Positions 1,539 to 39,353 of a stretch of DNA of 39,353 bases are shown here, one piece after another. The stretch covers positions 1 through 39,353 of the forward strand of contig CANPWR010000002.1 of assembly GCA_947584825.1 (NCBI GenBank). Direction: 5' to 3'. The notes under the pieces were generated by a model. The model was not told where the DNA came from. It saw only the letters and a program-made list of their open reading frames with translations, and ran no database searches. Position 1 is the first letter of the stretch; each line of letters begins with the position of its first letter. The stretch comes from an uncultured Clostridia bacterium. GTDB taxonomy: Bacteria > Bacillota > Clostridia > Oscillospirales > Ruminococcaceae. Position numbers and translations under genes: made by a program.

Positions 1539-3737
1539 TTACCTAACTTTAACTTTCCATGTCTTCTTTATCCAACTGCTGTATACCTTTTGAGTAACAC
1601 CGTTTGCATCTTGATAGGTTGTGTATGCCCTTACTCTTATGTAGTATGTCTTTCTGCGTTTGATTTTATTGCTCTTTATCGTTACTTTCTTACCTTTTAC
1701 ATTCTTTGTAACAATAATCTTATTCTTCTTGAACTTCTTGTTTATCGCTACCTGTACTTTGTATCCCTTTGCGTTCTTGACTTTTTTCCAGCTTACAACT
1801 ATCTTTTTATTGCCCTTTACCTTCGCTGTCAGCTTTTTAATCTTTGCCTGCTTCATTACTTTTTCAGCGTTTGCTTTATCCTTTGCTGCCTTAACTGCTT
1901 TGGCATTTGTGGTTGCCTTTGGTGCTGTGGTAGCTGCAGCAGGCTTTGCTGTTGTAGGTGCGGTAGTTGGGTCTGTTTTATTGTCTGACGGCAAGTTTGA
2001 CGAATTATCCGAAGAATTGTCAGAGTTATCAGACGACTCTTTAGAAGAAGTTTCAGATGGCGAACTTAAGTTTGGATTAGATGATGGATTTGAAGACGGT
2101 TCTGTCGGTCTATTTGAATTTCCAATTGTCTTAATAATATTTCCGCTTGCATCAAGAAATTCAATACATCTAATTAAATAAACATAGTCTTTAGCATCAC
2201 CCCATGAATATGTTGAAGCATAAACACTATAACTGTCACCATTCTTAATTTGATTAGAAAGGTCTAAAATTACTTCTATTGCAGTTTCTCCTTTAATATC
2301 GTTTTCACCCGTTACAGTTATCTTTGATTCTTTTCCGGCAACATTCGCAGACAAATTAATTCCTGCCCAAAGATTGAACGAAACATCTGCAGCACAATCA
2401 AATACATATCTTATTTTTACTGCTCCTTCCATTGAAGCGTCAGCCGTTCCGCTAGCCAAATTAAGAGGAATATCGCCATAACTAATCACACCAAGAGCAT
2501 CTTCTACTGCCATTGGTTCAAAATAACTGGTATCAATAGGAACAAAAGTTCCATCTGTTATTTCTTTAAATAGCCTTTCTATAACCTCAGCATCAGCTTT
2601 CGATTTTATTTTACACTGTGTTCTTGAATAAAAATTGTCATTTACATCCCATAATACAGGAACAAACCCATAGCTCTTAATAAGTCTCATTAAATAATCC
2701 AAAGCTTCGCTTGTTGATTTTACTGAAGCATTTTCAGAAAAACGATCATTATCATATATAGATGTTGTTTCACCAATAAATACAGGTATTCCTTTTTCTG
2801 TAAAAGATTTTTTTAAAAGATTTAACTGGCTTATACTAAATAACTTCCAAAATTTACTCCCTATTTGTTTAGACCAATATGCGTTTCCGTCAACATAATG
2901 AACTGATACCATCATTCTGTCTTTAGCCGTGTCAACAGGCATCTTAAAAGCTGAATTAGTGGTTTTTTCTACATTAGTAAAATATCCGGAAACTATAAGC
3001 ATTCTTTTCTCATTATTTCCGCCGGTAGCCCTTACCGCATCTACAAATGCCTGATTCATTTTGTTCGTCCAATCAAATCCTTCACTTTCAGGCAAATCGT
3101 TTATTTCATTATTAGAGTCAATTTGACCTCCTCCAAGATATTCATTAAAGCCTTCAAAAATTAGATAATCTGAATAGTCTTTAAAATAACTAGCAATCTG
3201 AGTCCAGATCCTCTTGAAAATTTCAGCAGATTTTTCTTTTGTATTACGTCTAATTATGAACTCATCAAAGTGATGAATATTGATTACCGCATAAACTCCT
3301 GCATTACGACAATAATCGACAATCTCCTTAACACGGTTCATGTATGCGTCAGAAATAGTATATGTACCATCATTTACCATCATATTGCCCCAAAACACAG
3401 GAATTCTTATGGTATTAAATCCAGCATTTTTCATCCCGTTAATAATCTCCTGATTAGTTACAACAGCACCCCAAGTGGTTTCATAATCTCTAGGTGTATT
3501 ACTGCCTATTATAGGAGGCCATTGGTATGACAAACTTGTACAATTAGCTGCATTATAAGATTCCATTGTATTACCCAGATTTATTCCAAGACCCATGTCA
3601 TCAGCGTAGTCCTGAGCAGTCATATTGTCACGCATAACGCCATCATCAGCCATACCCGTTACTGTTGATATTCCCTGAAATGATAAAGAACCCAACATTG
3701 TGCAAGCTGCTAATAAAATTGTGATCAGTTTTTTCAT
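1539..3737 (-). CDS. Secreted glycoside hydrolase family 5 (cellulase-like) with uncharacterised beta-rich domain, Ser/Asn/Thr linker and Lys-rich C-terminal FN3-like domain
   Basis: Signal peptide; GLGINLGNTMESYN, NTIRIPVFWG, FEGFNEY (acid/base Glu) and VFIGETT (nucleophile Glu) are GH5 hallmarks; C-terminal KKIVVSWKKVKNAKGYKVQVAINKKFKKNK...YYIRVRAYTTY. Confidence 0.88.
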   Translation of the reverse strand: MKKLITILLAACTMLGSLSFQGISTVTGMADDGVMRDNMTAQDYADDMGLGINLGNTMESYNAANCTSLSYQWPPIIGSNTPRDYETTWGAVVTNQEIINGMKNAGFNTIRIPVFWGNMMVNDGTYTISDAYMNRVKEIVDYCRNAGVYAVINIHHFDEFIIRRNTKEKSAEIFKRIWTQIASYFKDYSDYLIFEGFNEYLGGGQIDSNNEINDLPESEGFDWTNKMNQAFVDAVRATGGNNEKRMLIVSGYFTNVEKTTNSAFKMPVDTAKDRMMVSVHYVDGNAYWSKQIGSKFWKLFSISQLNLLKKSFTEKGIPVFIGETTSIYDNDRFSENASVKSTSEALDYLMRLIKSYGFVPVLWDVNDNFYSRTQCKIKSKADAEVIERLFKEITDGTFVPIDTSYFEPMAVEDALGVISYGDIPLNLASGTADASMEGAVKIRYVFDCAADVSFNLWAGINLSANVAGKESKITVTGENDIKGETAIEVILDLSNQIKNGDSYSVYASTYSWGDAKDYVYLIRCIEFLDASGNIIKTIGNSNRPTEPSSNPSSNPNLSSPSETSSKESSDNSDNSSDNSSNLPSDNKTDPTTAPTTAKPAAATTAPKATTNAKAVKAAKDKANAEKVMKQAKIKKLTAKVKGNKKIVVSWKKVKNAKGYKVQVAINKKFKKNKIIVTKNVKGKKVTIKSNKIKRRKTYYIRVRAYTTYQDANGVTQKVYSSWIKKTWKVKVR

Positions 3738-5653: not shown

Positions 5654-5841
5654 CTAATGACCTCCACTTTTGATTTAATTTACAATTTATTATATCAATT
5701 GGCAAATAACTTGTCAACGGAAATTATATGTAAACAAAAATCATATTTAATCAAAAATACACGACTGTCGGTTATTTGTATACTGATATTAGTCAAAATC
5801 AATAGACGGTATCAAAATGACATCTACTCAATTCCTTAAAC

Positions 5842-6255
5842 AGCCAAAATCGCCCGGGTATCCCACACCCGAGCGGTTTTTATATAGAAACATATTAAGG
5901 AAGCTTATTTAGCCTTTACTTTCCTTATCTTCTTTATCCAACTGCTGTATACCTTCTGTGTAACACCATTTGCATCTTGATAAGTTGTGTATGCTCTTAC
6001 TCTTATGTAGTATGTCTTTTTGCGTTTGATTTTGCTGCTCTTTATCGTTACCTTCTTGCCCTTTACATTCTTTGTAACGATAATCTTGTTCTTCTTGAAC
6101 TTCTTGTTTGCAGCTACCTGTACTTCGTATCCCTTTGCATTTTTTACTTTTTTCCAGCTTACAACTATCTTTTTCTTGCCCTTTGCTTTCGCTGTAAGCT
6201 TTGTTATCTTTGCCTGCTTCATTATCTTTTCAGCATTTGCCTTGTCCTTTGCTGC
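5842..6255 (-). repeat. Copy A of a ~414 bp direct repeat (terminator + stop + Lys-rich FN3-like domain coding sequence); copy B at 38841-39254
   Basis: By-eye alignment: about two dozen mismatches in total, no gaps noticed; begins at agccaaaa and ends at tttgctgc in both copies. Confidence 0.85.
5846..5881 (-). terminator. Intrinsic terminator of the C1A peptidase gene
   Basis: Minus strand AAAACCGCTCGGGTGTGGGATACCCGGGCGATTTT hairpin; near-identical to the one at 38845-38880. Confidence 0.75.
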
Positions 6256-9132
6256 TAGAATTATTTTGTTATTTGCTTTTTCTACAGGTATTGCCAATGT
6301 TGGTGAAGTATTTGAAATCTGTGCTGAAGTGTTATTTGATGAATCCAACGTATTATTTGAATTTTCCGATGAATCCGTTGTAGGTTCTGACGGCTTATCA
6401 CCACTGTCTGCTGCAATTACAGTTAATTTACAAGACGCAGTAACCTCACTTCCATCAAGACTTTTTACAGTTATAACTGTACTTCCTGCTTTTAATGCGG
6501 TGATAACTCCGTTATCAACAGTTGCAACATCTGTATCCTCTGATGTCCAAGAAAGAGATTTATTTTCAGCCTGTTCAGGCTTTACTTCAGCTGTCAGCGT
6601 ATAATTATCTCCTTCTTTTAATGTGACTTCACTATCGCTCAACTCTATACTTTCGACTTTGACAATATCTTTCTTAAAAGTTACTTCAATTGTATGTGAA
6701 CCTTTTACAGACGTAAATGTGTATTCTGACACAGCACCTATGCTCTCTCCATCAACCATTACATCTTCAATCGAATATCCGTCGTCGGCACTTATGTTGA
6801 AAGTTTGGTCTTTACCCTCCTCTACACTGATTTCACCTGACGGCGTTATACTTCCGCCAGGTTGAGCGTTAGCTGTAATTGTGAAGTAATTATGAGGTGC
6901 TTCTACAATTTGGAACTCCTTTGTAACGCTTCCCGTGTAATTTCCTATTCCAGTAATCTGTACTGTTCCCGTTCCCGGGTTTACGTTCTCTCCATAAGAA
7001 ACAGTATAATCGATTCCGCTCACCAAAGTCTTTTTGTCCAGCATTAAAGTTACATTTGGTTTTATGACATTTCCAGTATACTCCTGAGAATCTATATCGC
7101 TTACCATAGACTCATCAAGTGTATGAGGAACAATTTTAAATGTTGACTGAGCAGAACCTGTATAATTTTTTCTTCCGTATACTATAACATTTGCAGTACC
7201 TACGTTTAAATTTTGCTGGTATGCAATAGTGTAATCTGTATTCTTAACTAAAGTTTTTTGTCCAAATTTAACCACAACATCAGGTTTTAAATACTCTCCC
7301 ATAAATACCTGATTTTCAATTTGCTCAATCATATTATCTGCAAAATCAACAGCATTGATTTTGAAAGGTATTTCAAATTCGCCACGATAAGCATTAAGTG
7401 CAGAAATTTTTGCAGTTGCTGTTCCCACATTCACATTTTCATTGTATTTAATCTCATAATCCACAGATTCTGTAAGCTTTTTTCCGTCAACAACAATTGA
7501 CGCCTCAGGCTTACATTCACTTCCGCTATAATCATATTCTAGCTTTTCTAGGGTTATATCTTCTTTATTAATAGGTGTTCGAGTATCATCTATTACCGTC
7601 AAAGCTTTTACACACGCACAGCGGTATTCCCCTTTATAACCATGCAAATCATTCCAGCCATCATTTTCATATACGAAACTCTGATTCGGTTCTGTATGTT
7701 CTTCTGTTTTCAGCCAAGTATAATTAGAAGACTTAGAAACAAAAAGACAAGAACTTCCGTTGTTACTATGATTCGTCAATGTTACAACAACACTAAACTT
7801 AGTTCCCTTTTCTATCTTAAAAAGTTCACCAAGAGGAATTGTATAAACACCCGGTAATTCAGCATATAATTTTGCCGATGTTTTAAGCATAGGTGTTCCA
7901 CTGGTAGGATCAGAATCGTTCTTGATATTGGTATAGACCTGAACCTCACAGTCTGTATTATTGCTTTCTATGTTTACTGATACGCCTTTTATGTATTCAT
8001 TAATATATTTTGTTCCGTTTTTTGCCTCATAAATATTTCCTGCTCTTAATGTATTTGCAGAAAGATAATTCCAAGGATAAGATCCATCATAAAAATAGTT
8101 GTAATCATAATCTTCACTTTTCATATAATCAAAGGCAACTGCATCTGTTATAGTCTCTGCCTGAGACATATTAAAATAACCGTCATGTGCATTTATCCCT
8201 CTCCCTGTTCCCCAGCTATTCTTAACTATCCATACTCCGTCGATCCACGGTTTATTTTCACCGGTAAACTTATCCTTACTTACTGTATCATCCCAACCCA
8301 CTACAGTAACAGCATGATTAACTTTTGAATAAGATTGGTTATCTGAGTAATAAGGAGCGGAGCTTTTAAACTCAGAACCATTTGAATAATAGCTGATTAC
8401 TACTGATCCATATTCCATAATATATTGTTTAATATCATTTATTGATTTTGGAACAAACATAGCATTTTCAAGCTTAAACGCCGGAGGACCGTATTCATTA
8501 TCTTTGTTGGGAATTTTCGAGTAAGGAGCTTCATCTTCCAACAATGGATCAGACCACTGTGCTAAATGCATTGCTGTAAAGAGCAAATTGCCTCCAATAT
8601 CTAACCAATTTTTTTCTAACACAATATTTTTATCCTCACCTGTATTGCCTAAAGGATCGTTTTCACGGTTATAAGAAGAATAAGCAAGATGCATCTCAGA
8701 TAGATCCAACTCCCCTTTACCGTCATAGAGTCCCTCTTTCAAAATACTTGTCTCTGCTGCAGACATAACAGCATGTGCCCAACAGGTTCCGTAACCACCC
8801 TGATTTTTTACGCTTGTTATATAACCATTTTTTCTTGAGTCATATTTATCAGGCAGATTTAAACCTACTGCTACGACCTGATTATTTGGTTTTGGATTAG
8901 AAAATAAATTAGAATTGTCAATTGGCTTATAAGAATTGATAAATTCGGGAATATCAGTTATCTCCGATTCTGATTTAGATTCTTGTCCTGCCAACTTAAC
9001 TTCAGCACCAGCATAAATCGGCATCTGAATAAGTAGGCTAAGTATCAGCGTAATACTAAGCAATATTCTCAATAACATTGAACTTGCTGCTATATATGTA
9101 GACAAGATCTTATTTGTCTTTCTTCTAAACAT
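5905..9132 (-). CDS. Secreted papain-like C1A cysteine peptidase with lectin-like region, three YTG/GNYxG-type repeats, divergent InlB-type repeat, BIG2-like domain and Lys-rich C-terminal FN3-like domain
   Basis: KNQGGYGTCWAHAVMSAAE (Cys), NHAVTVVGWDD (His), VKNSWGTGRG (Asn); repeats such as YTGNVIKPNVTLML...DYTVSYGENVNPGTGTVQITGIGNYTGS; GGSITPSGEISVEEGKDQTFNISADDGYSI; VESIELSDSEVTLKEGDNYTLTAEVKP. Confidence 0.9.
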   Translation of the reverse strand: MFRRKTNKILSTYIAASSMLLRILLSITLILSLLIQMPIYAGAEVKLAGQESKSESEITDIPEFINSYKPIDNSNLFSNPKPNNQVVAVGLNLPDKYDSRKNGYITSVKNQGGYGTCWAHAVMSAAETSILKEGLYDGKGELDLSEMHLAYSSYNRENDPLGNTGEDKNIVLEKNWLDIGGNLLFTAMHLAQWSDPLLEDEAPYSKIPNKDNEYGPPAFKLENAMFVPKSINDIKQYIMEYGSVVISYYSNGSEFKSSAPYYSDNQSYSKVNHAVTVVGWDDTVSKDKFTGENKPWIDGVWIVKNSWGTGRGINAHDGYFNMSQAETITDAVAFDYMKSEDYDYNYFYDGSYPWNYLSANTLRAGNIYEAKNGTKYINEYIKGVSVNIESNNTDCEVQVYTNIKNDSDPTSGTPMLKTSAKLYAELPGVYTIPLGELFKIEKGTKFSVVVTLTNHSNNGSSCLFVSKSSNYTWLKTEEHTEPNQSFVYENDGWNDLHGYKGEYRCACVKALTVIDDTRTPINKEDITLEKLEYDYSGSECKPEASIVVDGKKLTESVDYEIKYNENVNVGTATAKISALNAYRGEFEIPFKINAVDFADNMIEQIENQVFMGEYLKPDVVVKFGQKTLVKNTDYTIAYQQNLNVGTANVIVYGRKNYTGSAQSTFKIVPHTLDESMVSDIDSQEYTGNVIKPNVTLMLDKKTLVSGIDYTVSYGENVNPGTGTVQITGIGNYTGSVTKEFQIVEAPHNYFTITANAQPGGSITPSGEISVEEGKDQTFNISADDGYSIEDVMVDGESIGAVSEYTFTSVKGSHTIEVTFKKDIVKVESIELSDSEVTLKEGDNYTLTAEVKPEQAENKSLSWTSEDTDVATVDNGVITALKAGSTVITVKSLDGSEVTASCKLTVIAADSGDKPSEPTTDSSENSNNTLDSSNNTSAQISNTSPTLAIPVEKANNKIILAAKDKANAEKIMKQAKITKLTAKAKGKKKIVVSWKKVKNAKGYEVQVAANKKFKKNKIIVTKNVKGKKVTIKSSKIKRKKTYYIRVRAYTTYQDANGVTQKVYSSWIKKIRKVKAK

Positions 9133-37675: not shown

Positions 37676-38713
37676 ATGGCAGTAAAAGTCGCAATTAATG
37701 GTTTTGGCCGTATAGGCCGTTTGGCATTCAGACAGATGTTTGGTGCAGAAGGTTATGAGGTCGTTGCAATCAACGATTTGACAAAGCCTTCAATGCTCGC
37801 TAATTTATTAAAGTATGATACCGCTCAGGGCGGATATTGCGGAACAATCGGCGAGGGACTTCACACAGTTGAGGCTGATGATGAAGCAAATACAATTACT
37901 GTTGACGGTAAGACACTTACAATCTATAAAGAAGCAAACGCTGCTGATCTTCCATGGGGAGAATTAGGCGTCGACGTTGTTCTTGAGTGTACAGGTTTCT
38001 ACTGCTCAAAGGATAAGAGCCAAGCACACCTTGATGCAGGTGCTAAGAAGGTTGTTATTTCTGCTCCTGCAGGAAACGACCTCAAAACAATCGTTTTCTC
38101 AGTAAACGAAAATACTCTTACTAAAGATGACAAAATCATTTCTGCTGCATCTTGCACAACTAACTGTTTAGCTCCTATGGCTGACACTCTTAACAAGTAC
38201 GCAGAGATCCAGAGCGGTATTATGTCAACTATCCACGCTTACACAGGCGACCAGATGATCCTTGACGGTCCACACAGAAAGGGCGATCTGAGAAGAGCAA
38301 GAGCAGGTGCTGCTAACATTGTTCCTAACTCAACAGGTGCTGCAAAGGCTATCGGTCTTGTAATTCCTGAGCTAAACGGAAAGCTTATCGGTTCTGCACA
38401 GAGAGTTCCTGTTCCAACAGGCTCAACAACGATTCTTACAGCTGTTGTTAAGGGCGACAATGTTACTAAGGAAGGCATCAACGCTGCTATGAAAGCTGCA
38501 GCAAGCGAGTCATTCGGTTACAACGAAGACCCGATCGTATCTTCAGACGTTATCGGAATGAGATACGGTTCACTCTTTGACGCAACACAGACAATGGTTG
38601 CACCTATCGGCGACGGACTGTATGAGGTACAGGTTGTTTCATGGTATGACAATGAGAACTCATACACAAGCCAGATGGTAAGAACAATCAAGTATTTCGC
38701 TGAACTTGACTAA
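37676..38713 (+). CDS. gap: Glyceraldehyde-3-phosphate dehydrogenase, type I
   Basis: [60 protein letters not shown]. Confidence 0.97.
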
Positions 38714-38770: not shown

Positions 38771-38840
38771 AGAATAAAGAAACAAGAGGCAAGAAATTAA
38801 AGAACAGAGATTTGATGTTAGAAGTTTAAATAGAATAAAT

Positions 38841-39254
38841 AGCCAAAACCGCCCGGGTATCCCACGCCCGAGCGGTTTTTATATAGAAACATATTAAGGA
38901 AGCTTACTTAGCTTTTACTTTCCTTATCTTCTTTATCCAACTGCTGTATACTTTCTGAGTAATGCCATTTGCGTCTTGGTAAGTTGTGTATGCTCTTACT
39001 CTTATGTAGTATGTCTTTTTGCGTTTGATTTTATTGCTCTTTATCGTTACTTTCTTACCCTTTACATTCTTTGTAACGATAATCTTGTTCTTCTTGAACT
39101 TCTTGTTTGTCGCTACCTGTACTTCATATCCCTTTGCATTTTTTACTTTCTTCCAACTTACAACTATCTTTTTCTTGCCCTTTGCTTTTGCAGTAAGCTT
39201 TGTTATCTTTGCCTGCTTCATTACCTTTTCAGCGTTTGCCTTGTCCTTTGCTGC
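38841..39254 (-). repeat. Copy B of the ~414 bp direct repeat (see 5842-6255)
   Basis: Shares the terminator, the spacer tttttatatagaaacatattaaggaagctta and the FN3-like domain coding sequence. Confidence 0.85.
38845..38880 (-). terminator. Intrinsic terminator of the truncated right-edge gene
   Basis: Minus strand AAAACCGCTCGGGCGTGGGATACCCGGGCGGTTTT. Confidence 0.75.
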
Positions 39255-39353
39255 CTTAACTGCTTTGGCATTTGTAGTTGCTATTGGCGTAGTAGGTGCT
39301 TTTGTTGCAGGCTTTGCTGTTGTAGGTGCAGAAGCTGGCGGATTTGTTTGATT
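38904..39353 (-). CDS. C-terminal fragment of a secreted protein with Thr/Pro/Ala linker and Lys-rich FN3-like domain; 5' end beyond window
   Basis: Frame stays open past the track's Met (39221): NQTNPPASAPTTAKPATKAPTTPIATTNAKAVKAAKDKANAEKVMKQAKITKLTAKAKGKKKIVVSWKKVKNAKGYEVQV... Confidence 0.85.
   Translation of the reverse strand, partial: NQTNPPASAPTTAKPATKAPTTPIATTNAKAVKAAKDKANAEKVMKQAKITKLTAKAKGKKKIVVSWKKVKNAKGYEVQVATNKKFKKNKIIVTKNVKGKKVTIKSNKIKRKKTYYIRVRAYTTYQDANGITQKVYSSWIKKIRKVKAK

Follow-up and report, generated by a model that had tools for sequence, protein, structure and literature searches.

A single conserved C-terminal tag is carried by many unrelated secreted proteins in the LPXTG, PEP-CTERM and T9SS CTD systems. 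Ruminococcus albus genomes encode tens of copies of the lineage-specific module CBM37; the enzymes that carry it have dockerin-bearing orthologues in R. flavefaciens, and CBM37 reportedly attaches enzymes to the cell surface or cell wall (PMC4081043). The same species keeps 58–90 dockerin-containing proteins, and its CBM37 modules are often in tandem (PMC4081043). In simple cellulosomes, X2 modules of the scaffoldins have been implicated in cell-wall attachment (PMC11557425).

Here we describe a C-terminal domain, hereafter CTD, of uncultured Clostridia. The window, that is the whole stretch of 39,353 nt that was analysed, is the complete contig C2 of bin G000 (1.30 Mb, 130 contigs, 79% complete), whose sister genomes are rabbit-gut MAGs. 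The CTD is probably an interchangeable retention tag that replaces dockerins, and its copies are probably kept alike by gene conversion together with purifying selection.

Copies of the cassette in the window

Local alignment of positions 5837–6255 with positions 38836–39254, both read on the minus strand, gave 395 identical bases out of 419 (94.3%), with 24 mismatches and no gaps, and a chance match is excluded (E = 5e-187). The original prediction had counted some two dozen differences in a stretch of ~414 bp, which agrees with this alignment except that one edge lies 5 bases further out. The abrupt limits of similarity that it had placed around the terminator and spacer as well as the domain were also borne out. 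Each cassette begins with the last 115–116 codons of a gene and its stop codon; a spacer of ~30 nt then leads to a G+C-rich hairpin with a T-run, and a few extra bases complete it.

Copy 1 of the domain, which is fn3-like and lysine-rich, lies with its stop codon at 5905–6255 (minus strand) and ends exactly at the stop. It terminates a gene (5905–9132, minus strand) for a secreted papain-family (C1) peptidase with lectin-like and Big_2 domains. The 3' flank of this copy (5837–5904, minus strand) holds the spacer and the hairpin of an intrinsic terminator (ACCGCTCGGG...CCCGGGCGATTTT), with a fold z-score of −2.8. A motif count placed the hairpin at 7 sites in the genome, each beside a CTD copy, and no Rfam RNA family was found within the window. 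Copy 2 and its stop codon (38904–39254), followed by its own spacer and terminator (38836–38903), are likewise on the minus strand, in a gene that is convergent with the GAPDH gene region (37676–38713) and truncated by the contig end. Only the CTD, 99 nt from that end, and a Pro/Thr/Ala-rich linker (39255–39353, minus strand) are known of this protein; the same linker is present in several other copies of the genome. Copy 3 (1539–1889, minus strand) ends the gene of a secreted GH5 enzyme (1539–3737, minus strand), whose relatives in the dockerin clade described below mostly end in a dockerin. As predicted, it has the same domain with a different terminator: positions 1549–1889 are 90% identical to the 5837–6255 copy, and the match breaks ~13 nt short of the last base of the stop codon. 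The 5' edge at 6255 holds for the C1-peptidase copy alone: other copies in the genome are alike for a further 75 to ~600 nt upstream.

Sharp edges and a common noncoding 3' flank would suit a mobile element or cassette, inserted at the ends of genes and supplying them with a complete tail and terminator. However, the edges vary by pair, from 3 to ~600 nt upstream and from −14 to +69 nt downstream, and for this reason the reading was rejected as extremely improbable. In addition, a repeat scan gave no inverted-repeat pair of at least 60 nt, no transposase was identified among the window genes examined, and the 3' flank was left unexchanged at the G012/G005 locus described below.

It is very unlikely that copy 2 is an assembler chimera formed at a repeat. 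Its closeness to the contig end would fit such an artefact, and so would the fact that 9 of 25 CTD copies of the genome lie less than 400 nt from a contig end, versus ~8% expected. However, the copies differ at 4–10% of bases, which indicates distinct loci, and genome G004 has a CTD gene at the same GAPDH-adjacent position, where the same terminator type is kept. Short-read bins break at the CTD repeats, so that all copy numbers given here are minimum values; the repeats explain the assembly breaks at such genes in these bacteria.

A lysine-rich fn3 tail and its hosts

The CTD is one domain of ~115 aa. Its AF2 model (pLDDT 95.3, pTM 0.85) has an fn3 fold of eight strands, preceded by an N-terminal helix, and the top Foldseek matches of the model were fn3 domains, with TM scores mostly of 0.5–0.7; both thus give a beta-sandwich of fn3 topology. 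The score for Pfam fn3 (PF00041) is borderline, with 26.3 bits for copy 2 and 20.9 bits for copy 1, for a cut-off of 25. The CTD has its fold in common with the fn3 domains of bacterial secreted enzymes, with a weak score for that family. In relatives outside the clade, most fn3 domains are internal or in tandem and have far fewer lysines, whereas the CTD stands alone as a C-terminal tail and has an extra helix at its N-terminal side. Lysine makes up 32% of the CTD, for a median net charge of ~+37. The median pI is 4.7 for the host bodies and 10.7 for the CTDs, which carry +32 charges per 100 aa, and a pI above 9.5 was found in all 119 CTDs tested. No NCBIfam model names the domain, and searches of the open-access literature returned no description of this tail.

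In the window's bin, the cassette has 25 matches at the DNA level, nine or ten of them at 90–100% identity (counting the query and one partial copy at a contig end), and 35 at the protein level. Every complete copy of this genome is the C-terminus of a longer secreted protein. The hosts include the C1 peptidase with its lectin-like domain, several GH5 enzymes, BspA-type LRR, CotH and CAP proteins and a FIVAR-domain protein, among others. Across 15 members of the genus, 10 genomes have 31–54 copies and the other 5 have 0–4, while other genera of the family have zero or one. In the ten CTD genomes, where copies outside the window's genome were sampled as best matches to its domain, the CTD reaches the last residue in 137 of 139 complete copies (distance 0) and is always single, with no tandem among the 139. 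A signal-peptide-like start, judged by a crude rule, was present in 65 of 66 hosts.

The many GH5 hosts raise the question of whether the CTD targets a substrate rather than the cell, as a cationic, CBM-like domain for an acidic plant polysaccharide or mucin. Its charge would fit any polyanion, and the CBM37 of R. albus binds polysaccharides as well as the cell surface (PMC4081043). However, the peptidase, LRR, CotH and CAP hosts have no substrate in common with one another, and the CTD sits in the position of dockerins, which attach rather than target. Substrate targeting seems to us a rather doubtful account of the domain.

Rabbit-gut Lachnospiraceae MAGs (loci L261 and L280) have one secreted protein that ends in a similar lysine-rich fn3 tail, of 45–51% identity. 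This tail possibly reflects transfer within the rabbit gut.

Homogenisation of the tails within genomes

Best-reciprocal pairs of host proteins were compared among the CTD genomes. In 80 of 118 pairs, one genome or both had an unrelated host whose CTD was closer than that of the orthologue. A copy therefore resembles others of its species more than it resembles its orthologous counterparts elsewhere, which is the pattern of concerted evolution. The GH5 protein of the window is an example: its body is 87–88% identical to those of G007, G009, G011 and G012, but its CTD only 52–56%, whereas an unrelated host in the same genome has a CTD up to 90% identical to it. Two other genomes, G002 and G004, are each near-uniform, with CTDs 97–99% alike between unrelated hosts, and in both several copies share a genome-specific 3' flank. 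On host genes, CTD replacement is independent of the body.

An exchange tract between unexchanged orthologous flanks was seen at one locus, a GH5 paralogue compared between G012 and G005. Its body is mostly 83–92% identical and its 3' flank 97%, versus 67–74% for the CTD. Orthologous flanks thus enclose a CTD that alone is different, the outcome expected of gene conversion acting on the domain. No conserved neighbours of the window's GH5 gene were found in other species.

Could the tails descend from an old, ordinary domain duplication, and owe their likeness to purifying selection on the protein only, without gene conversion? In the window's genome, close copies have a dS of ~0.25–0.45 and a dN/dS of ~0.05; they are thus not very young, and the protein is under strong purifying selection. 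Both values agree with selection only, as do the PHI tests within the CTD, which were not significant in G000 (p = 0.32) and G004 (p = 0.70); the value for G002 was 0.04, uncorrected. However, selection on the protein does not account for tails that differ far more between orthologous hosts than between unrelated hosts of one genome, nor for the interior CTD replaced between orthologous flanks at the G012/G005 locus. It also leaves aside the spacer and terminator, which are common to unrelated hosts and less diverged than third codon positions (0–5% versus 13–17% different), so that the flank must be either constrained or exchanged later. Selection without conversion is therefore an unlikely explanation. 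In this genome the hairpin motif is found only at CTD copies, and a diverged form of the cassette 3' flank follows CTD copies in other species, which makes the flank an old part of the cassette.

Two parts of the original prediction bear on these results. Cassette duplication or gene conversion gained support from a family that is genome- and genus-wide, from its species-specific homogenisation, and from a noncoding flank that travels with the domain; a simple recent duplication is nevertheless too simple an account of the copies. The proposal of a recent event, rather than protein-level selection alone, was half right, given the divergence at synonymous sites and the strong selection reported above. 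The dockerins in whose place the domain stands had no part in the original prediction.

A further repeat was observed in G004. At loci L056–L067 this repeat, which begins CAACGGCGAGCCGCCG...GCTCTGCCGCCTTTGG, is found after the stop in several CTD genes, and next to GAPDH (L320) it separates the CTD from the older cassette terminator, much as a MITE- or REP-like element inserted at the stop would. Sequences like this repeat also follow CTD genes in G003, G007, G012 and G000.

Tails and dockerins in sister clades

The five genomes without the CTD family (G001, G006, G008, G010 and G013, with the 0–4 copies mentioned above) have 12–26 dockerins, as compared to 0–1 in the ten CTD genomes. In the window's genome, dockerin type I (PF00404) had no match, and the Ca-binding DxNxDG repeats are absent from the CTD. 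Cohesin matches numbered up to three in the five dockerin genomes, and no cohesin match was found in any of the ten CTD genomes. A RimO tree placed CTD genomes and dockerin genomes in two separate clades. Dockerins are common in the family but patchy, so that an ancestral dockerin state is likely, though unproven. The exclusion of dockerins and CTDs corresponds to a single phylogenetic split (n = 1 as an event), and alone it does not prove equal function.

The position of the two modules was compared on related enzymes. For GH5 and other enzymes whose bodies are 48–62% identical, the protein has a dockerin end in G006 and a CTD end in the other clade. Within the genus, dockerin type I is, like the CTD, a single C-terminal module of related secreted proteins, GH5 enzymes among them. 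In contrast, there is no sequence relation between the two, and dockerin segments are acidic (median pI 4.6), the CTD basic. The CTD holds the dockerin position of the sister clade, and this common position is a stronger point than the exclusion itself.

The gene convergent with GAPDH was considered as an orthologous CTD/dockerin swap, as it encodes a CTD protein in G000 and G004, a dockerin protein in G001 and G013, and other genes are found there elsewhere in the genus. This candidate was rejected: the host body in G004 had no BLAST match to the G001 and G013 proteins. The GAPDH of G002 (L327, contig C87) is only 90% identical and falls outside the genus in the GAPDH tree, while RimO places G002 inside the CTD clade; a stray contig or a transfer is possible. 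The RimO tree was used for this reason.

Two observations concern the dockerins themselves. With 12–26 dockerins, the five genomes have yet only 0–3 cohesin matches, so that either they have no classical cellulosomes or their cohesins are too diverged for the model. In G006, the dockerins (L300, L303–L306, L308) look homogenised, with near-same ...YGDVNGDGKVTTADVGLANSHAKGV... tails on different proteins, and uniform tails may therefore be general.

By analogy with the CBM37 of R. albus as a precedent, we infer an anchoring role for the CTD. As a retention tag it would hold secreted enzymes on polyanionic material or at the cell envelope, and electrostatic binding to wall polymers would be the simplest way to do so. 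It would have taken over the job of the dockerin when dockerins and cohesins were lost from the clade. Gene conversion, by ectopic homologous recombination among the copies, would keep the tails of one genome alike, and purifying selection for one common binding surface would act in the same direction.

The uniformity of the tails could also be imposed by a single receptor surface, if the CTD docked onto a dedicated protein, a new cohesin-like partner. Tails that are extremely uniform within species and divergent between species fit such a partner, and the module replaced is a protein–protein docking module. However, a non-exhaustive search found no receptor, and the extreme overall basicity of the CTD suggests nonspecific charge binding, which makes a dedicated receptor improbable. 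A broader scenario, which we put forward only tentatively, is that the rabbit-gut clade swapped dockerin display for an interchangeable, hypercationic fn3 tail, kept uniform by conversion, with tail and partner co-evolving. The tails would then be uniform because one receptor or wall polymer must recognise all of them, and with one partner common to all tails, the two would co-evolve species by species.

The CTD as a retention tag touches the open question of how fibre-degrading enzymes are retained by gut bacteria that have no cellulosome. The related enzymes of the sister clades, with their two kinds of C-terminal plug, are a natural swap experiment, and the CTD shows how fast a protein tag turns over and becomes uniform across the unrelated genes of one genome.

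Judged from sequence, the CTD resembles CBM37 in being multi-copy and lineage-specific and in apparently replacing dockerins on related enzymes. It differs from CBM37 in that it is an fn3 domain, strictly single, C-terminal, hypercationic and nearly exclusive with dockerins. The likeness to X2 modules is one of description; these sit in scaffoldins, whereas the CTD is at the C-terminus of each enzyme. Finally, in contrast to the LPXTG, PEP-CTERM and T9SS CTD tags, the tail described here is a folded domain up to the last residue, with neither an LPXTG-like motif nor a transmembrane tail.
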